Position numbers and translations under genes: made by a program | DNA from: Phycisphaerales bacterium | Lineage (GTDB): Bacteria; Planctomycetota; Phycisphaerae; Phycisphaerales; UBA1924 | DNA length: 34,267 nt | Direction: 5' to 3' | NCBI GenBank assembly: GCA_020427745.1 | Contig: JAGQOC010000051.1 | Location: forward strand, 1-34,267 | The notes under the pieces: model-generated | The model's input: only the letters and a program-made list of their open reading frames with translations | Database searches by the model: none | Told to the model about the DNA's origin: nothing | Shown: piece after piece, positions 15,119 to 26,700 of the stretch | Layout: every line of letters starts with the position of its first letter | Numbering within the stretch: position 1 is the stretch's first letter

Positions 15119-16453
15119 TCAGCGTTGGAACGGGTACAGCCCAGGCAGATCGAGGATCCGGGTGAGCTCGTCGAGCGCGTCGATGCACGAACGGGCGAGC
15201 GAGGGATCGCGGAGCTGGTCCGGGGCGATCTGCTCGGGGTAGGTCCGCTCGACCCATTCACACAAGAGTGTGTGCAGCTCGTCGTTGAGTAATACGCCGG
15301 TGTGGACCGCTCTGCGTTCCTTCTCGGTGAGCACCACACGCAGGCGCAGGCACGCGGGCCCGCCGCCGTTGCGCATCGACTCGCGGACATCAAGATAATG
15401 CACCGCGTTGACCGGGTTGCTCGCGTCCGCGATCATCCGCTCGATGAACGCGCCGACGCGCCGGTTCTCTCTGGATTCCAGCGGCGCGATCAGGGCCATC
15501 GAGCTGTCGGGGAGTGTGACGATCTGGGAGTTGAAGAGATAGCTTGTGACGGCGTCCTCGAGCGAAAAATCGGACTGGGTCGCTTCGATGCAGATCAGTT
15601 CCTGCCCGAGCGGGCCGGCAAGGTCGGTCATCAGCGAGCGTGATGCCGCGAATGCCTGCTCGTGGTAGAGGAACACCCGCCCGTTGCCTGTCGAGATGAC
15701 ATCGTTGTGGAACACACCGGCGTCGATCGCGTCGGGGTGCTGGCGTGCGAAAACCACACGCTCGGGGTCCAGCCCGTGCGACCGAACAATCGACTCGCTC
15801 GCGGCCCGGGTCTGTCTGCTGGGGAACTTGCGGGCGCCCGATCCCGGCTCGTGGGCATCCACGCCGTAGACAAAGAGCTCAACCCCCGGCTCGCCGTGCG
15901 TGTTGCAGAAGCGGACATGGTTCGCGGCACCCTCGTCGGCGAAGCGTGATTGGTCGGGCAGCGGGTCGTGGACGACGAAGTGCCTGGGATCGCGGAAGAT
16001 CATCCGCAGCGCATCGGTGGTGGTTGGGTGCTCGAAGGAGCGGTGGAAGTTGGAAACAAGGTTCGCGGGGGTGAGGTGGACCTTGTTGTCGTCCGTGTCG
16101 GCGCTCGGGGAGACGGTCGCGGCGTTGGCGGCCCACATGCTCGAGGCGCTCCAGACCGCCGCGAGGATCGTCGGGTCCGCGTCGTGCGTCTTGTCGAGGA
16201 GTTCGGCGTCGCTCCCGGTAAAACCAAGCCTCCGGAGCATCGCAAAGTCCGGGCGCTGCTGCGGGGGGAGCACGCCCTGCATGAGCCCGAGATCCATCAG
16301 GGTTTTCATCTTCCCGAGCCCCTGCAGCGCCGCCGCTTTGGGGCTGGAGACCAGCCCGGCATTGGTCGCGGACGCGACATTGCCCACGGATAGCCCGGCG
16401 TAGTTGTGGGTGGGGCCGATGAGCCCGTCGAAGTTGACCTCGTGTGTCGTCAT
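15119..16453 (-). CDS. astB: N-succinylarginine dihydrolase
   Basis: 444 residues. AstB removes two ammonia molecules and CO2 from N2-succinylarginine to give N2-succinylornithine in the arginine succinyltransferase pathway. Motifs recalled from E. coli AstB are kept throughout: EVNFDGLIGPTHNYAGLS at the start, MWAANAATVSPSADT, NLVSNFHRS, DEGAANHVR, FHNDVI and NGGGPACLRLRVVLTEKERR with nucleophile C368 (E. coli C365). I use ATG 16453, the second of two adjacent ATGs, because its N-terminus aligns residue for residue with E. coli and it lies 5 nt after TATCGT. No other ast gene is in the window. It starts only 18 nt after the metal permease stop, so it may also be co-transcribed with the metal importer. 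Confidence 0.95.
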   Translation of the reverse strand: MTTHEVNFDGLIGPTHNYAGLSVGNVASATNAGLVSSPKAAALQGLGKMKTLMDLGLMQGVLPPQQRPDFAMLRRLGFTGSDAELLDKTHDADPTILAAVWSASSMWAANAATVSPSADTDDNKVHLTPANLVSNFHRSFEHPTTTDALRMIFRDPRHFVVHDPLPDQSRFADEGAANHVRFCNTHGEPGVELFVYGVDAHEPGSGARKFPSRQTRAASESIVRSHGLDPERVVFARQHPDAIDAGVFHNDVISTGNGRVFLYHEQAFAASRSLMTDLAGPLGQELICIEATQSDFSLEDAVTSYLFNSQIVTLPDSSMALIAPLESRENRRVGAFIERMIADASNPVNAVHYLDVRESMRNGGGPACLRLRVVLTEKERRAVHTGVLLNDELHTLLCEWVERTYPEQIAPDQLRDPSLARSCIDALDELTRILDLPGLYPFQR

Positions 16454-16458
16454 CATCG

Positions 16459-16471: not shown

Positions 16472-17770
16472 TCAACTCGCGGGCGGAATGGGCTTGCCGT
16501 GCTGGTCGCCGTGCGGCGCGTCGGTCTCGTTGGGCGATGGCGAATCGAGGTGCTCGAGCGTCTCGGCGACGGCGTGCACATGGTCGGGGAGCAGCCCGGC
16601 GCGATCGACGAGGTACCCCTCCCAGAGCCGATGCCTGCGGATGATCGCCGATGCGTCGGCGAGCCCCCGCTCGGTGAGCGACAGGGCGCCGTTCTTCGCG
16701 GTGACAAGCCCCGAGGATTTCGCCCGCGCGACCGCGGGCATGCCCGAAGCGTGGTGGGGCGCACCGGCCTCGCGTGCGCGATAGAGCGTCGTGAGCAAGT
16801 CCTCCATCGCGATGCGTCGGCTGAGTTTCTGTCGGTGGACAGCTCTGGCAACAATGCCGTGACGCGGGGACGCGATGATCGTGAGCACGAGCAGCACCCC
16901 CCCTATGACGGCCATCATCCCCGCGGCGTTCACTGATCCGCCGTGGACGAGCGACTCGGGCGCGTTGGCCGAGAGGAAGTACCCGCCGACCGACGCGCCG
17001 AGCGCCGCCAAGGCGCTGACCAGGATCTGCGAGCCCATCCGGTCGGTCAGCAAACGGGCGGTGGCGGCGGGGCAGATCAGCATCGCGATCACCAGGATCG
17101 AGCCGACCGCCTCGAACGACGCGACGGCTGCGGCGGCGACAAAGACCATTAGCAGGAACTGGATCGCCGATGCATTGATCCCCTGGGCGGTGCTGATCCC
17201 CGGGTCAAAGGCGCTGATGCGGAGCTCCTTGAAGAACAGCACCATGAACACGATCGACGCGCCGGTCATGCCGAGCAGTGTCCAGATCTGGCGGGGGATC
17301 TGCTCGAGTGTTGCTTTGCTTAGAAAAGCATCCCAGGTGTCCGCGGGTGTCCAGTGCAGCGAGAGCGATTCGAGATTGCCGTAGAGCACACAGCTCGCGT
17401 CGAGATCAACGGCGCGCGCGTTGCCCTGCTCGAGCAGGAACACGCCGAGCGCGAAGAGGACGGAGAAGATCACGCCCATTGCGGCGCCCGGCTCGACGCG
17501 TCCGAGCCTGCGGACGAGCTGGATAAGAACGACGGTGACGATGGCGGACGCCCCCGCACCGAGGAACATATACGCCGGGTTGATCGTCCCCCCGACCAGG
17601 AACGCGAGCACGAGCCCGGGGAGAACGGCGTGCGAGATCGCGTCACCCATCAGCGATTGTTGGCGGAGGACCAGATGATTCCCGAGCAGCCCGCAGCACA
17701 GCGCCGCAAGCACACCGGCGAGCATCGGCATCAGGTCCAACGCGATGAAGCCGTAGGCGAGATCGCTCAT
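16472..17770 (-). CDS. Metal ABC permease (TroD/YtgD-like) with C-terminal MntR-like metal domain
   Basis: 432 residues. Residues about 1-290 are an ABC-3 family permease with multiple helices and the family motifs LRQQSLMGDAISHAVLPG and VGSILVIAMLICPAATARLL. After the last helix the cytoplasmic tail (about 310-415) is MntR/DtxR-like. A helix AMEDLLTTLYRARE matches the MntR N-terminal metal helix (Asp kept, Glu11 position Thr). LTERGLADASAIIRRHRLWEGYL supplies H380 (MntR H77), and AETLEHL supplies E403, E406 and H407 (MntR E99, E102, H103). The winged helix is shortened and its recognition helix is not recognisable, so this copy is likelier a metal sensor or dimerisation module than a DNA binder. 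It starts by an ATGA overlap with the upstream permease. The imported metal is Mn, Fe or Zn. Confidence 0.9.
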   Translation of the reverse strand: MSDLAYGFIALDLMPMLAGVLAALCCGLLGNHLVLRQQSLMGDAISHAVLPGLVLAFLVGGTINPAYMFLGAGASAIVTVVLIQLVRRLGRVEPGAAMGVIFSVLFALGVFLLEQGNARAVDLDASCVLYGNLESLSLHWTPADTWDAFLSKATLEQIPRQIWTLLGMTGASIVFMVLFFKELRISAFDPGISTAQGINASAIQFLLMVFVAAAAVASFEAVGSILVIAMLICPAATARLLTDRMGSQILVSALAALGASVGGYFLSANAPESLVHGGSVNAAGMMAVIGGVLLVLTIIASPRHGIVARAVHRQKLSRRIAMEDLLTTLYRAREAGAPHHASGMPAVARAKSSGLVTAKNGALSLTERGLADASAIIRRHRLWEGYLVDRAGLLPDHVHAVAETLEHLDSPSPNETDAPHGDQHGKPIPPAS

Positions 17771-19083
17771 GCCCTGCTCTCCGCGAGCAGACGCTCGAGA
17801 CGCCGGACCAGCTCGTCGTCGAGCACATGCTCGACCTGGTCCACGGACCAGTCGACATGAGATGGCGCGATGTCGGCGTGTGTAATCAGGTACTGCTCCC
17901 ACAGCGCATGGTTCCGCGCGACGCGTGCGCCGCGCGCACTTCCGATGTGTGTAAGCGTCGCTACCCCGTTGCTCATCGTGATGAATCCGCGGATCTGCAA
18001 TGCTTTGGCGAGGAGTTTGAATCGCAATGACGGGATACCGTGCTCGTCGGCAATGTCGCTTAGGGGGCGGCCGGGGCTGGTGTTTGTGTTCTCGAAGAGA
18101 TACTCGAGCAGGTGGTCGTTGGCGATGCGCCAGCGGATCCTCGCTCGCCGGAGCGCCGTCGCGAGCACGCCGCGTGCGGGGGCGAGGAACATGCTGGCCG
18201 CGAACAACGCGCCCGCGGTGAGGACGATGACCGAGCCGGCGGGCTTGCGTGGGAGCAGGGCGCTGACGGATGAGCCCGCATAGCCGCTGGCGCCGCCGAT
18301 TAGCGCGCTGAGCAGGATGAGCTTCCACAGGCGTTCCGTCCAGAATCGTGCGGACGCGGCCGGGATGATCAGCATCGCAACGATCAGGATCAGTCCGACA
18401 GCCTGCAGCCCAGACACGGTGACAAGCACGATCAGCCCGAGAATCACCGTGTCCATCAGCCACGCGGGGATCCCCGTTGCGCGGGCGAACGAATCGTTGA
18501 AACAGACGAGCGAGAGCTCCTTAAGCAGCAGCAACGCGACGGCGGCGCTGAATACACCAATCACGCCCATCGTGATCGTGTCCGAACGCGTCATCGCGGC
18601 GGTCTGCCCGTAGATAAAATGATTCAGCCCCGCAGCATTCCCCGATGCGTTCGTCTGGATCACCGAGAGCAGCACGACCCCGAGCCCGAAGAACACCGAG
18701 AGCACGATCCCGATCGACGCGTCCTCGCGCAATCTGGTCTTCGTGATGAGCAGATGGATGCACACGACCCCGAGCACGCCGGTGATCGCCGCGCCGATCA
18801 TGAGCACGGGCATCGAGCGGGGCGCGAGCCCGAGCGACGGCGCCGCGAGGAACGCGATGCAGATCCCCGGGAGCGTCGCGTGGCTCAGAGCGTCGGCGGT
18901 GAGGGATCGTTTGCGGAGCAGCGCGAACGCACCGATCAAGCCCGCCGCGATCCCGAGGAGGGTGGTGCCGACAATAACGGATGTTGTGTTGAAACCGGCC
19001 TGCAGCGTGAGCGTGCGCACGATTTCGTCGATCGTCGGCGGCATATCGACGGCGCCCGGGATGGATCCGCCGGTTGTCGTCAT
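17767..19083 (-). CDS. Metal ABC permease fused to DtxR/MntR-like regulator (TroC/YtgCR-like)
   Basis: 438 residues. The permease part (about 1-305) has [23 protein letters not shown] and [20 protein letters not shown] (given as family landmarks, each about 20 residues). The C-terminal 125 residues look like a whole DtxR/MntR repressor core: the w[21 protein letters not shown], then [15 protein letters not shown] (wing), then H392 in [10 protein letters not shown], and D415, E418, H419 in VDQVEHVL, matching MntR H77, E99 (here Asp), E102 and H103. Chlamydial YtgCR has the same permease-repressor fusion, is cleaved, and its YtgR part represses in response to iron. I infer a similar role here. 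It starts by ATGA overlap with the ATPase gene. Both permeases carry such tails, which is unusual. Confidence 0.9.
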
Positions 19084-19898
19084 CCCCCGCGGTCCCTCCG
19101 GGCGATCGCTTCGGCCGCCTCGGACAGGAGCGTCAGACGCCCGCCGTAGGTTTTATGCAGGTTCTCCTGTGTGAACACATGCTCGACCGGGCCGGCGGCG
19201 ACAACGCGCATGTTCAGCAGCAGCGCGTGGTCGAAGTACTCGGGAACAGTCTGCAGATCGTGGTGAACGACGATGACCGTTTTGCCCTCCGCGCGGAGAT
19301 CACGCAGCACGGCGATGATCGCCCGCTCTGTCGCGGCGTCCACGCCCGCGAACGGCTCATCCATGAAGTACAGATCGGATTCCTGCGCGAGCGCCCGGGC
19401 GAGGAAGACTCGCTGCTGCTGCCCGCCGGAGAGCTGGGAGATCTGCCGCTTGGCAAAGTCCGCCATCCCGACACGCTCGAGGCATTCAAGAGCCACGCGT
19501 TTGTGCGCGCGAGAGACGGGCCGGCACCAGCCGATCTTGCGGTAGCGTCCCATGCACACGACATCGAGGGCGGAGACCGGGAAGTCCCAGTCGACGCTCT
19601 CTCGCTGGGGCACATAGCCGATCCGCGAGCGTGCACGCTTGTGGGCCTGTCCCCAGAACTCGACGGTCCCGCTCGCTTTGGGGATGAGCCCGAGGCAGGC
19701 CTTGATCATGGTGCTCTTGCCCGCGCCGTTGGGGCCGACGATCGCGACGAGCGCTTCGCTCGGCGCGTCGTAGTCGATGTCCCAGAGCACCGGCTTGCGG
19801 TCGTAGGCAACGGTCATCGCGTGCACCGACAGCGGCGACTCCTCGGAGTGCTCCGGACGCTGGGCGAGCGCGGAGGTTGTGGGGGGCGCCGCGTTCAT
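19080..19898 (-). CDS. Metal ABC transporter ATPase (TroB/YtgB/MntB-like)
   Basis: 272 residues. It energises metal import with the two downstream permeases. Motifs: Walker [11 protein letters not shown]-loop region [20 protein letters not shown] (typical of Mn/Zn/Fe ATPases), signature [15 protein letters not shown], Walker [14 protein letters not shown] and H-loop VVHHD. The ATG at 19898 overlaps the stop of the binding-protein gene by one base (TGATG), and its own stop overlaps the permease start (ATGA). A 22-residue Ala/Pro-rich N-terminal extension precedes the nucleotide-binding domain; start choice is fixed by the coupling. Confidence 0.94.
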
Positions 19899-20905
19899 CA
19901 GGGGGACTCCTTGGTGCTGGGCGACTCACCGAGTTTGCCCTGCATCCCGTGCTCGGGCGCGTCGCCGCCGAGGGAGCGGACGATGGTCGTGACATTGTGG
20001 TCGATCATACCGACATAGGTGCCCTCGTAGGTTCCGCGAGCGCCCATCGCGTCGCTGAAGAGGTTCCCGCCGATGATGACCTCGTGCCCGCGGGCCTTGG
20101 CGCCCGCGATGAGCGCCCGGATGTTGCGCTCGGAAACGGTCGTCTCCACAAACACGGCGCGGATCTTCCTGTCGACGAGCAGCGATACGATCCGCTCGAG
20201 GTCACGCACACCCGCCTCGGACTCGGTGCTGATCCCCTGGATGCCCACGACCTCGTAGCCGTAGCGCCGACCGAAGTAGCTGAACGCGTCGTGCGCGGTG
20301 ACGAGCACGCGGCGATCTTCGGGAACAGAATGCAGCACGCGCTCGGCATAGTTGTCGAGCGCGTTGATCTCGTTGATCACCGTCTGCGCGTTGACGGCAT
20401 ACTGCTCCGCGCCCTCGGGGTCGTACCCGCTGAGCGTGTCGCGGATCACCGCTGCAGACTCCGCCCACGCGGCGGGGTCCATCCAGACATGCGGATCGTG
20501 GTGCCCGTTGAACTGCGCCGGGGTGAGCAGGTACGACTCGTCGATCTCCTCGGTCACGGCGCGGACAGTTTTTCCCGAGCCGGCAACCCGCTCGAGGGCG
20601 TCGCCCATCTTGCCCTCCAGATGCAGCCCGTTGTAGAGCACAACATCGGCGCCGAGCAGCTTCTGGATATCCGAGCGTGTCGGGGTGTAGAGATGCGGGT
20701 CGATCCCCGACCCCATGAGCCCGGTGATCTCGGCGCGGTCGCCGGCGATACGCGTAGCGAGATCGGTGATCATCCCGGTGGTGGTGACGATCGAGATCCG
20801 CTCGCTCTCGGGGTTGGCCTTGGATTCTGTCGGCTGTCGAGCACAGCCAAGGAACGCGCACAGCGCGAGCAGAGCGGAGGTCCCAAGGATCAAGATACGC
20901 TTCAT
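19898..20905 (-). CDS. Metal-binding lipoprotein (TroA/YtgA-like) of ABC importer
   Basis: 335 residues. ATG 20905 begins a lipoprotein signal [21 protein letters not shown] with acylated C21, so the protein is tethered outside the membrane. It is a cluster A-I binding protein with TroA-type ligands: H71 (DPHLYTP), H139 (DPHVWMDP), H205 ([15 protein letters not shown]) and D285 ([10 protein letters not shown]). The three-His-plus-Asp set and the strings [14 protein letters not shown] and [13 protein letters not shown] favour the TroA/YtgA branch (Zn, Mn or Fe) over PsaA-type with Glu. An AAAGGG precedes the start by 7 nt. A longer in-frame start at 20944 would lie inside the promoter and is rejected. 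It is the first gene of the ABCD operon. Confidence 0.95.
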
Positions 20906-20923
20906 CGGAGCCCTTTCTGCTAT

Positions 20924-20937
20924 GTAGCCAAGGCTAC
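20924..20937. promoter_or_regulatory. Palindrome at the metal-importer promoter, candidate metal-repressor operator
   Basis: GTAGCC-AA-GGCTAC, perfect 6-bp arms. It touches the -10 box and covers the predicted transcription start of the binding-protein gene. The position fits repression by a DtxR/MntR-type dimer, possibly the regulator domain fused to the first permease. Confidence 0.6.
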
Positions 20938-20964
20938 GATACAATGCCGTGGATCTTCTGTCAA
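20936..20964 (-). promoter_or_regulatory. Promoter of the metal importer operon
   Basis: TTGACA (20959-20964) and TATCGT (20936-20941) are separated by exactly 17 nt on the minus strand. This is the best sigma-70 type promoter in the window. It predicts a leader of about 24 nt that includes the palindrome and the AAAGGG ribosome site. Confidence 0.72.
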
Positions 20965-20996
20965 GGGCAGCGGGGTGGTTCTGGATGGGTGAGGGC

Positions 20997-23744
20997 TTAT
21001 TCCGGCGCGAACTCGACCCGGAGATGGCGGGCCTTGGCGTAGGAGTCGGCGAAGAGGGCGTGCAGCGAATCCGGGGTCATCGCGAGGTATGCCTCGCGGA
21101 TATTCCAGATATCCCCGGGGGTGTAGCCCTGGATCTCAAGATCCGCGAGCCGGTCTGCCCAGAAGCGGGTGGATTCAAACCGGGAATCGAGCACGCCCCG
21201 GATGAACCCGGTCTGCGCATCGATCTCCGCCCGTGTGGGTGCGGTCTGGGCGAGTTCATTCAGTGCGGATTCGAGGGCCTCGCCTTGCTCGCCCGGGTTC
21301 GGGCCCCGGGACCCGATGAGGAGCAATGCCCGCCCCGGAAACCGGTCATCGAAGACAACGCCCGCGTTCGTATCGCCGGGGAGTTCCCCGGCTCTCACCT
21401 GATCACTGAGCCGGGCGTTGAGGATCATCGAGGTAAGGATCAATGCGCGGAGTCTTGGGAGATCCGACGCTTCGCCCGCGACCAGCCCGACGACGGCTCC
21501 ATGGTGCGCGGGCTCCGAGTCAACCACACGCAGGACGCACTCGGGCTCGATCGCGTTTCCGGTCTCGACCGGCAACGGGCGGACGCCCGGGAGCGGGCGC
21601 GCGGGCAGGGCACCGAGGAAGGTTTCGGCGGCATCGAGGGTGTGCTCGGTGTCCTCGGGCCCGACGATCGCGATCTCGATCGGCGCAGAGCGTGCGAGTT
21701 CGCGCAGGGCGCGGCTCGCCTCATCGTGGGAGACCGATGCGGTGCTCCGTGCAGAGCAGGGTTCGGGGGCGGTAACCGCGTCCAACGCCGCGTCGAGCAT
21801 CCATTCACTTTCGTCCAACGCCTCGTCGGTGGCGTGTTGCCACTGCCCGAACGCCCGATCATCGACCTGCGCATCCGCGAGGAGCACATACGCCAACTCG
21901 ATCGCGCGATCGATCGAGCCTGCGGGGGCGCGGATGCTGAGCTGGACCGAGTTGGTGTCGGCATGGACATCAAGCGTCAGCCCGTGCTCGCTCAGGATAC
22001 CCCGCACCTCGTCGCTGTTCAGACGCGTGGTCGAGGGGCTCTGCCACCCCGAGATCGCGGCTTCCTCGAGTGTTCGATCGTCGATGGTCCGCTGCAGCGA
22101 TACACGGATCTCGCTGGTGTTGGTGATGTCGCTCATCGTCCGCTGATGAACAACGACGCCGTTGTCCATGCGTGCGGTCCAGACACCCGATCCGGGGTGT
22201 TGGGTGATCTCACGGATCTCGCCGCCGACGGGGATGCTTGTCAGGATCGGAGGGGCGGCGGTGTTCACCCAGTCCAGCGCGAGGGGCGGGAGCCGATGAT
22301 TACGCCGGGAATCAAGCTCGGTCCGTGCGGCTTCTCTGCTCGGGACATCGTCTTGGCTCGAGAGGACGATGAGATTGCAGCGGTCCGGATCGAAGACCCG
22401 GCGGAGGGTTGCGTGGATCTCCTCGTTCGTGATCGTTGCGAGCACGCCCGAGGCCTCGTCGCCCCATCGGGCGGGGTCAAAGCAGAGCCCGGCGTTGATA
22501 ATCCAGTTGCACGAGCGGGCGCGTTCATTTGTGCTGAGACTTGCCCATTCGTCCTGATCGTTCTGCCAGAGCATCAGACAGACCCTGCGGGCACGCCCGA
22601 ACTCCGCTTCGCCGATCGGGTCGTTGCGGAGCCGATTGAGCTCGCCGAGCAGCGCGTCGAGCGCATTCTCCCACGCGTCGGTGTTGATCGCCGCGACGAC
22701 CTGGGCGGCGCGGATCCCGCTGGAGAGATTGACGATCGAGCCGTCCGTTTCGACGACGCCGTCGAGTGAGCGGAAGATCTGGGCGTTGATCCGGTGGCGG
22801 ACAAGCTCGGAAGCGACCTTCTCGAGCACAATCTTTCGTGTGCTCGATGCGGGGTCCATCTCCGCGAAGCGGTTGTGCTCGAACCAGACGAGCGCAACAT
22901 CCGTGCGGTCCTGCGTGTTTGTGACGACGGAAACGCGCCCGCTCGCGGCGGTCCCGCTCGGGTGATCCACTCCGGGCGGGGGGGCGGACTCAAGCCCGCC
23001 GAGGGAGCCCGCGATCCTGTTTGTCACCGCTTCGGGGTCGAAGGGGCCGACGATCACCAGCGTCGCGTTGGCGGGGGTGTAGTTCCGTTTGGCGTAGCTA
23101 TTGACGCGATCAAGGGTCAGCCCGCGGAGCGCGTCCGCGCCCGCCAGCGGCATCCGATCGCCGATCGGTACACCACTCAGGATCTCCGGCATCCACTGCT
23201 GCATCGAGTTTTCCGATGCCCGAGCGCTCAGGGTAAGCAGCGCGTCGCGGGCCCGGGTGAATGCGGGCGCATCCACGCGGGGCTCCGTGAGGAGATCGGC
23301 GTAGAACCCGAGCACGCGGCTCAGGGCGGTATCGTCGGGCGCCGCGAGCATGTAGGTGGTTTGATCGAAGTACGCGAACGCACCATTCCCGATCGAGGCA
23401 TCGGCCCCCGCGATGCTGAAGAGATCGTGGATCTGGGTCTCGTCCATCGTCGCTGTTCCGAACATCGCGGCCCGTTTGAAGACCATCGCCGCTCCGCGTT
23501 CGTCGTCGCGCTCATCGATCGATCCCGAATGGACTTGCAACCAGACCTGGAGCGCACCCCGGGACCCGTCTTCGTTGTGCTCGTCGCGGTCCGGGAACAT
23601 CTCGATCCGTAGCCCGTTGGGGAGCGTCTCGCTGCGGGGTTCATTGCCGAGGGACACCGGGGCGGTGAGCACGATCAAGGCAGCGATCGCCCATCCGATC
23701 AGTGCGGCGAGCGGTCGGGCGGGTTGTGGTCGGGTCTGGTTCAT
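20997..23744 (-). CDS. M16-family (pitrilysin-like) peptidase homologue lacking the HXXEH site
   Basis: 915 residues from ATG 23744, which opens a signal peptide or anchor (residues 12-32), so the protein is exported. It has the two-half M16 layout: SETLPNGLRIEMFPD begins half one, VWTARMDNGVVVHQRT begins half two (about residue 515). In active members half one has G-x-A-H-F-x-E-H-M-x-F-x-G-T. Here residues 84-97 read GAAMVFKRAAMFGT, so both zinc His and the catalytic Glu are gone (MVFKR at 87-91), while the surrounding fold residues remain. No HXXEH is seen in half two either. It is thus likely a non-catalytic binding or partner subunit. It starts 19 nt after the helicase-nuclease stop and is probably in that operon. 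Confidence 0.82.
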   Translation of the reverse strand: MNQTRPQPARPLAALIGWAIAALIVLTAPVSLGNEPRSETLPNGLRIEMFPDRDEHNEDGSRGALQVWLQVHSGSIDERDDERGAAMVFKRAAMFGTATMDETQIHDLFSIAGADASIGNGAFAYFDQTTYMLAAPDDTALSRVLGFYADLLTEPRVDAPAFTRARDALLTLSARASENSMQQWMPEILSGVPIGDRMPLAGADALRGLTLDRVNSYAKRNYTPANATLVIVGPFDPEAVTNRIAGSLGGLESAPPPGVDHPSGTAASGRVSVVTNTQDRTDVALVWFEHNRFAEMDPASSTRKIVLEKVASELVRHRINAQIFRSLDGVVETDGSIVNLSSGIRAAQVVAAINTDAWENALDALLGELNRLRNDPIGEAEFGRARRVCLMLWQNDQDEWASLSTNERARSCNWIINAGLCFDPARWGDEASGVLATITNEEIHATLRRVFDPDRCNLIVLSSQDDVPSREAARTELDSRRNHRLPPLALDWVNTAAPPILTSIPVGGEIREITQHPGSGVWTARMDNGVVVHQRTMSDITNTSEIRVSLQRTIDDRTLEEAAISGWQSPSTTRLNSDEVRGILSEHGLTLDVHADTNSVQLSIRAPAGSIDRAIELAYVLLADAQVDDRAFGQWQHATDEALDESEWMLDAALDAVTAPEPCSARSTASVSHDEASRALRELARSAPIEIAIVGPEDTEHTLDAAETFLGALPARPLPGVRPLPVETGNAIEPECVLRVVDSEPAHHGAVVGLVAGEASDLPRLRALILTSMILNARLSDQVRAGELPGDTNAGVVFDDRFPGRALLLIGSRGPNPGEQGEALESALNELAQTAPTRAEIDAQTGFIRGVLDSRFESTRFWADRLADLEIQGYTPGDIWNIREAYLAMTPDSLHALFADSYAKARHLRVEFAPE

Positions 23745-23763
23745 ACAACACCGGTGGACGGAC

Positions 23764-26700
23764 TCAGGGTGTACCCGATCCGGGGCCCGATGATGCACCC
23801 GGATCGGGTGAATTCGGGCCTGTTTCGTTCGGGTGCTTGAGCATGTCAGGGTCGATGCAGTCGTCGAGGATCGCGCAGCTTCCGGTGCAGGAGTGGAGTT
23901 TGGGCCATTGACCGCGTTGGATGCCCTCGATCGCGTTGTCGATTTTCTGCTTGATTTTATCGAGATCGAGGTCGTCGGCTCCGATCCTCCCGCGCGAGCC
24001 GTCCTGCAGGAGCCAGTACTCAAAGTCCGAGCCGGAGATGTCGCCGTTGTAGATCTCCGAGAGCGCCATCGCGTAGATGCCCATCTGCAGATCGGTCTTT
24101 TTGGGTTCGAGCAGGTCCTGCTTGGGGTAGCCGGTTTTGTAGTCGATCACACGGTACGCGCCGCTGGGTTGGAGATCGATCCGGTCGATCTTGGCGTGGA
24201 TGCTGTGCTCGATGCCGTCGTGTTCGTAGGGGATGTGCTCGTCGCGTTCGAGCTCGAGGATCTGTGCGTTTTCGTCGTGCAGGGTGTCCCAGACGGTCCG
24301 CGCCTGCGCGACTGCTTGCTCAAGCCGGGCGATATCGGGCTCGATGTGCGCGGGCCAGAGCTGCAGGAACGCTCTGCGGGTGAGCTGTTCGAGCTCCTCG
24401 ACGCCCGGCAATGCTGCCCCCTCCGCGTCCGCGGCGCGCCAATGGGTGTAGAACAGCTCGAGCGCGCGGTGCACGGTGCTGCCCGTCGTCGATGCGGCGT
24501 GCTCCTCCTCGGGGAGCCGGAGCACATAGCGAACCAGATAACAACGCGGGCACTGAAGATAGGTATTGATCCGCGTGTAGCTCAACCGTAGCGGGCCCGC
24601 GATCCCCGGGTGCAGGGCACGCTCGAATGGTTGCTCGCTGCGGAGTGACTCGGTCAGCCGGGTCGCGAGCCCGCCGAGCCCGTGCGCGTCCGCCCAGTCC
24701 GGCGCCACCCCCGATGCGCGGATTGTGGACGCGAGCGCCACCGTGCGCACAGATTGTGTGAGTTCGTCCTCGCTCTGCCCGATGCGGTCGGGGTGCAGAT
24801 CCGCCTGGTCGATCGCCGCGGCCGCACGCAGGCGTGCGAGCCGGCGCACCTCGTCGAACCCCTCGCGGATCGCCTTTCGGCTCCTGAACTCCACCTCCAG
24901 GCGCGCGATTGCGTCGGGGGTGTGCGATTCGTCGGTCAGCTCGCGGATGTCGTGCTCGATGAGCGTGGTGCGATCATTGTTGAGCAGCTCGAACGCGAAG
25001 TTGACCGCCGAGCTCTTCTTGGGCAGCTTGGCGAGCAGCACCGCACGCCGCTCGGCGCGGGTGAGCGCGACATAGAACACCCGCCGCTCCTCGTCCGCGC
25101 GGCGTTGCTTGCGGTCGCGTTCATCTCCCACGCGATCAACGAGCCCCTCGGGGAGTTCCTCGTTGTCGGAGCCCGCCATCTGCGGGTAGCCGTGCGGCGA
25201 GCAGACACGCGGGATAAACACCGTATCGAACTCCAGACCCTTGGATGCGTGGGCCGTGAGCAGCTGCACCGCGCCGTTCGAGCCGTCCTCCGTGCCCGCC
25301 GTCGGTCCTTCATCCCGCTCGACCGCGTTCTCGGGCAGCTCGCCCAGCGATTGTTCCTTGGGATCAAGATCGTCGATGTAGCGGAGCATCGCGCCCAGGT
25401 CGCCCGGCTGGTCGAAGCGTGTCGCCCGAGAACGGGCGAACCCGAGCAACGCGACGATCGCGCTCATACGCGATCCCTGCTCGCGTGCATCGGGGAGATC
25501 CGCGTGCAGCACCCCGGAGCGTTTGATGATCTCCAGCATGGTCTCCGCGGCGGGCGATTCTGCGTTGATCCGCGCAAGCTCCTCGAGCAGTGCGAGCGTC
25601 CGTTCGATCGGCGCGATCGCGTCGCCGATCGCCCGGGACCGCATCCAGACGAGCGGTGCCCCCGGGTCCGCGTGCTCGGTCGGGTCGCTCCCGTGGCGTG
25701 TGTGCTCGATCTTCCAGCGCGTGAGCAAGGAGCCGACGCCGTGCGGGTCGGCGCGCATCGGTGGGCGAGTGAGGATCCGTTTGATGTCGGGTGTTGAGAG
25801 CGGGTCCGCCGTGGCGCGAGCCCACGCGAGCACATCCCGGACACCCTGGTCGTCCATCAGAGACCGTTTCTCGCGGACACTGAAGGGGATCCCGGAGAGA
25901 TCCAGCACGCGGGCGATCTTCGCGAGCTCACCCGACGAGCGCGCGATCACGGCGATGGATCCGAAATCGAGATCCGGTTTCTCGGCTCGCGCCTGCAGGA
26001 TCATCGCGGCGATCGCCTCACCCGACTGCTCATCGTTCTCGAGACGAACAAGCTCGATTGTCGAGGAACCCGAGTCTGGTTTCGTCGGGTTGGCGGATTT
26101 ATCCGAGGCAAACCGCGAGCCTTCGGGAGCGTTCGTAATGATCGTGTTGGACGCGCCGACGATCGTGGGCTCGGAACGGAAGTTGTCGTCCAGCGTGACC
26201 GTCCGTGTACTTTGCCAGATCAAGTTGAACCGTGCGAACGCCCGATCGTCGGCGCCGCGGAAGGCGTAGATGCTCTGGTCGTCGTCGCCCACGACGCAGA
26301 TATCCGGGTTGCCCGTCGGCGGGGCGAGCGCCTCGAGCAGCGCGATCTGAGCGGCGTTGACATCCTGGAACTCGTCCACAACAAGGTGCGCGTGGTCGCG
26401 CCGGAGGATCGCGGCGATGTGCGATTGTGTGCGCATCAGACGCGTCGGCAGCGCGATCAGGTCTTCGAAGACCATCCACCCGCGTTTGAGGCATTCGCTC
26501 TCGAAATATCCGAACAGCACCGCCGCCTCGCGGAAACGCTCGATCTCGGTCCGCCGGGCGATGGCGTCCTGGTCCTCGAGCCCGCGGAGCCTGCCCAACT
26601 CAGCCTCCGCCCACCGCTGGGCGCGGGTGGCGTCGATTCCCGCGTTGCGGAGCATCGAGATCGTTCCCTGCGCATGCTCGATCGCGCTGTCGATCCCCGC

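Follow-up and report, generated by a model that had tools for sequence, protein, structure and literature searches.

In Escherichia coli, the NRAMP transporter gene mntH is the target of MntR, and the mntH upstream region, as read directly from the K-12 genome, contains AAACATAGCCTTTGCTATGTTT, which is built on a TAGC-N4-GCTA core. In Treponema, the importer operon troABCDR is associated with TroR, for which operator oligonucleotides TTTGATGCATCAAA and TTTGATATATCAAA have been described, and the permeases are not described as tailed (PMC2628430). Chlamydia trachomatis YtgABCD is an SBP-ATPase-permease-permease operon in which a TroC-type permease ends in a DtxR-like domain, and this product, YtgCR, is reported to repress its own operon (PMC5599777, PMC7755916). 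Permease-DtxR fusions have been reported in 11 phyla, and it has been suggested that such self-regulation may occur throughout bacteria (PMC5599777). In the transporters MetNI and ModABC, transport is stopped when a C-terminal cytosolic domain detects the substrate being imported (PMC10710835). A literature search for reports of permease-DtxR fusions in planctomycetes yielded no papers.

Here we analyse an importer operon in a stretch of 34,267 nt (the window) from a Phycisphaerales bacterium (GCA_020427745.1, contig JAGQOC010000051.1, positions 1-34,267), whose closest named relatives are Phycisphaerales genomes. As in E. coli, the genome encodes a MntR that passes the equivalog model, and the site shares the E. 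coli operator core and lies over or near the promoter; the outer half-site differs (ACATAGC in E. coli, TGTAGC in the window), and the target is an ABC importer rather than mntH. The operon is homologous to that of Treponema, but the window genome has the MntR-type pair of regulator and box, whereas in many relatives a long TroR-like DtxR with an FeoA domain and TTTGA-N4-TCAAA replace MntR and its box. The gene order and the fused permease recall YtgCR, from which the window differs in that both permeases are tailed, the helix that would read DNA shows no conservation or is truncated, and the operator goes with a repressor encoded separately. By sequence, then, the operator is assigned to the MntR-box kind, and the tails group architecturally with YtgCR while appearing, from indirect tests of conservation and co-occurrence, to lack two of its defining features. 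MetNI and ModABC offer a possible working analogy for the tails, in that a C-terminal cytosolic domain senses substrate, although their domains have other folds and sit on the ATPase rather than on the permeases.

Importer operon and promoter

The importer is encoded on the minus strand. Its first gene (19898..20905) encodes an SBP of the ZnuA/TroA family (PF01297, E=2.8e-77) and is followed by genes for the ATPase (19080..19898; PF00005, E=5.6e-28), for permease 1 (17767..19083), an ABC-3 permease with a C-terminal DtxR/MntR-like tail (PF00950 and PF02742), and for permease 2 (16472..17770), which has the same two domains and a DtxR-like tail. The start codon of the SBP gene was picked by inspection and is the ATG at 20905-20903, with AGAAAGGG upstream. 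We note that a gene for an astB-type succinylarginine dihydrolase (15119-16456) begins 15 bp beyond permease 2, in the same orientation, and may share a transcript with the importer.

A consensus scan of the minus strand finds a -35 hexamer TTGACA (20959..20964) and a -10 hexamer TATCGT (20936..20941) separated by a 17-nt spacer. TTGACA-N17-TATCGT is the sole sigma-70-like match in 18000-25500, where shuffled sequences give a mean of 0.6. The exact palindrome GTAGCC-TT-GGCTAC (20924..20937, minus strand), which contains the MntR-box core TAGC-N4-GCTA, covers the expected transcription start site, given the SBP start codon at 20905-20903. A promoter overlapped by a palindrome that spans its predicted start site, as proposed in a preliminary description of this DNA, is therefore confirmed in exact sequence and recurs in relatives. 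That description had placed the palindrome directly after the -10 hexamer; this needs a small correction, as the two overlap by two bases, the final GT of the hexamer being also part of the palindrome.

As a bare inverted repeat, the palindrome proves little. The window contains 27 perfect 6-N2-6 inverted repeats, compared with a mean of 13 in shuffles, so a chance repeat with no regulatory role could in principle look the same. Its weight comes from conservation in relatives: position and sequence are conserved upstream of 49/53 importers in genomes with MntR, against a background of 0.02 per scanned zone for GTAGC-N4-GCTAC with at most one mismatch, and the probability of a chance origin is negligible. 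The palindrome is unique at 0 mismatches across the 2.56 Mb genome. A wider regulon was also considered, and the sole other site with at most one mismatch lies inside a repeat-rich FG-GAP-like coding region and was taken as chance; this genome-wide site search found no second convincing MntR site. With mntR itself unlinked and no second site, the predicted MntR regulon of the window genome rests on one site.

Stand-alone MntR in the window genome

A free-standing mntR gene is present on another contig of the window genome (G000:C146:6868-7296). Its product comprises PF01325 (wHTH) and PF02742 domains, scores 164.8 bits against the NCBIfam PRK11050 MntR equivalog model (cut-off 153), and has E. 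coli MntR (2h09, E=1e-30) as its best PDB match. Alignment to the E. coli and Bacillus subtilis proteins shows that the equivalents of D8, E11, H77, E99, E102 and H103, the metal-binding residues of MntR in B. subtilis numbering, are all kept. Contamination as the origin of this contig was considered and rejected as unlikely, because its composition matches that of the window (tetranucleotide distance 0.107; the window compared internally gives 0.088, and relatives give 0.28-0.50) and because two congeners have the same mntR-STAS neighbourhood. In many relatives mntR adjoins the importer.

The preliminary description saw no free-standing DtxR gene because it covered a single contig, and it took the tail of the first permease as the only candidate regulator. 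Neither statement holds: a stand-alone DtxR-family gene is encoded elsewhere in the genome, and the second permease carries a PF02742 tail as well.

Co-occurrence of operator and regulator in related genomes

Importer loci (94) were taken from genomes of the same order, and the zone from -700 to +60 of the SBP start was scanned. The comparison set comprises the 91 loci with upstream sequence, window included, of which 53 come from genomes with MntR and the other 38 from genomes whose stand-alone DtxR is of the long type or absent; regulators were grouped by a score threshold, and the scores are clearly bimodal. GTAGC-N4-GCTAC (at most one mismatch) is present upstream of the importer in 49/53 MntR loci and in 0/38 of the others (Fisher 2e-21), and the exact site is found in 41 of the 53. 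Across the set, presence of the MntR-box core ahead of the importer thus tracks the regulator. Four MntR genomes lack the strict site: two carry GTAAC-N4-GTTAC, one has an imperfect site, and in the fourth the sites are displaced to a position beside mntR, 1.4-1.9 kb upstream. Pairs of neighbouring MntR-box-like sites, with a spacing of about 16 to 21 nt, are seen at loci L229 and L230 (-52 to -18 of the SBP gene) and also at L105, an arrangement that suggests two dimers side by side.

De novo palindrome searches recover a different motif for each regulator group, GTAGC-N4-GCTAC where MntR is present and TTTGA-N4-TCAAA where the regulator is a long DtxR. The latter, with at most one mismatch, occurs at 27/36 long-DtxR loci compared with 1/53 MntR loci, and equals the operator of Treponema TroR (PMC2628430). 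Two of the long TroR-like regulators were examined, and both contain PF01325, PF02742 and FeoA domains. Judged from sequence, each operator is thus of the kind that the accompanying type of stand-alone regulator is known to recognize. The two loci in which both tails are present and a stand-alone DtxR was not detected (L164 and L165, congeners) were inspected for an operator specific to the tails and have neither known palindrome upstream of the SBP gene. By eye, a Fur-like TGAGA-N5-TCTCA is common to both near the promoter, and genes of the Fur family are present.

Relatedness was controlled for with a tree of SBP and ATPase, on which regulator type changes 12 times. Eight independent pairs have support; the operator goes with the regulator in a mean of 7.4 of them and is never opposed to it (median p 0.0078), whereas the tail of permease 1 shows no association with the site (1.6 for and 1.6 against). 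The switch can be seen within a single genus: one genome (G062) has a long DtxR and GTTTGACTAGACAAAC, five congeners have MntR and GTAGC sites, and both tails are present in all six, so that regulator and operator have both been swapped while the tails are unchanged. Such paired swaps, of MntR or a TroR-like regulator together with the matching box, constitute a clean record, left by nature, of one regulator replacing another.

The site is conserved, and both its presence and its switches follow the stand-alone regulator rather than the tails. We conclude that the palindrome very probably serves as operator for a stand-alone MntR of the E. coli type, with binding, the identity of the metal and repression predicted from the family and from site position.

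This conclusion can be set against the closed loop proposed in the preliminary description, in which the wHTH tail of permease 1, perhaps released by proteolysis as in Chlamydia YtgCR, would bind the palindrome and repress its own operon. YtgCR provides a reported precedent for a permease-fused DtxR domain acting in this way (PMC5599777, PMC7755916), but the distribution of the site is at odds with it. The permease 1 tail is kept in 35 of the 38 loci without MntR, all of which lack the site, while five MntR genomes that have lost both permease tails (L179 and L191-L194) retain it, and the tree pairs give the same lack of association. The expected conservation of the palindrome with the fused tail is therefore not borne out, and the closed loop is not supported. 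Of the broader proposal, a DtxR/MntR-type operator over the importer promoter, the operator class is upheld by the comparative evidence and the identity of the regulator changes, from the tail to stand-alone MntR. Across 91 related operons, the operator changes about a dozen times together with a separately encoded regulator and the tails stay, which is a clear counter-example to general self-regulation and makes the real function of the tails directly testable.

DtxR-like tails of the permeases

The tail of permease 1 (17770..18168, minus strand) has a wHTH fold with an unconserved recognition helix and a conserved metal-binding and dimerization half. Its structural model (pLDDT 85.7) shows a full DtxR/MntR fold, with MntR and DtxR as the best Foldseek matches and TM of about 0.7-0.8 to 6kta, 1ddn and 2h09. 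The tail of permease 2 (16475..16864, minus strand) also retains the metal and dimer half, but its model (pLDDT 89.5) has a single helix before the wing, one HTH helix being missing. We note that this truncated tail ends in a DPHG-x-x-IP-like motif that is conserved in relatives. Both permeases thus carry a DtxR-like domain at the C-terminus of a TroC-type permease, as in YtgCR. The other two hallmarks of YtgCR appear to be lacking: conservation argues against a DNA-reading HTH in either tail, and co-occurrence argues against an operator of the operon that tracks the tail.

Within the same 32 genomes, the mean top-residue value of the recognition helix is 0.78 for MntR, 0.32 for tail 1 and 0.46 for tail 2, whereas that of the metal-binding and dimerization part is 0.70, 0.74 and 0.72, respectively. 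The latter part contains invariant R-x-H-x-L-W and E-H motifs in the tails. Such conservation is consistent with a domain retained to sense metal rather than to read DNA. The modelled DtxR/MntR fold of tail 1 makes some DNA binding conceivable, and its near-invariant metal-ligand-type residues also speak for the loop. Nevertheless, the recognition helix varies even though most MntR loci have an exact site, and at L229, L230, L245 and L247 HTH residues of tail 1 are deleted while the operators are perfect. Co-occurrence, the tree pairs and the conservation of the helix all led us to reject the tail as reader of the operator; the tails probably do not read the palindrome, and self-repression by tail 1 is very improbable.

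A combined arrangement, in which the operator is read by MntR while the tails adjust repression by sequestering or pairing with MntR, is supported by the conserved tail halves, which include the dimerization region and make contacts between tail and MntR conceivable. Against it, tails also persist where the regulator is a long DtxR or a stand-alone DtxR is lacking, and regulator type and tail are unassociated, with no partner-specific link visible; we consider it highly unlikely too.

Under control by stand-alone MntR, sufficient cytosolic Mn(II) would place a Mn-loaded MntR dimer on TAGC-N4-GCTA, over the -10 hexamer and the start site. From knowledge of the family and the position of the site, a dimer at the promoter would be expected to block RNA polymerase and keep the importer operon silent. 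When Mn is scarce, the dimer would leave and the importer would be made. The tails, by analogy with trans-inhibition in MetNI or ModABC, probably detect metal in the cytosol and work on the transporter, and their most likely role is that of DtxR-derived cytosolic metal sensors of this kind. A more specific reading, to which we give slightly less than an even chance, is that, across this order, both tails of the Mn/Fe importer have turned from DNA-binding repressors into post-translational metal sensors that gate the transporter (DtxR-fold trans-inhibition), with transcription left to an interchangeable stand-alone MntR or TroR-like regulator.

Another fusion of a DtxR-like domain with a component of metal transport was seen by eye in a relative (G003): a 381-aa open reading frame (L268, 1664-2809), beside a feoB-like gene, joins a DtxR-like domain with an altered ligand region (DRREHRR) to FeoA-like sequence.
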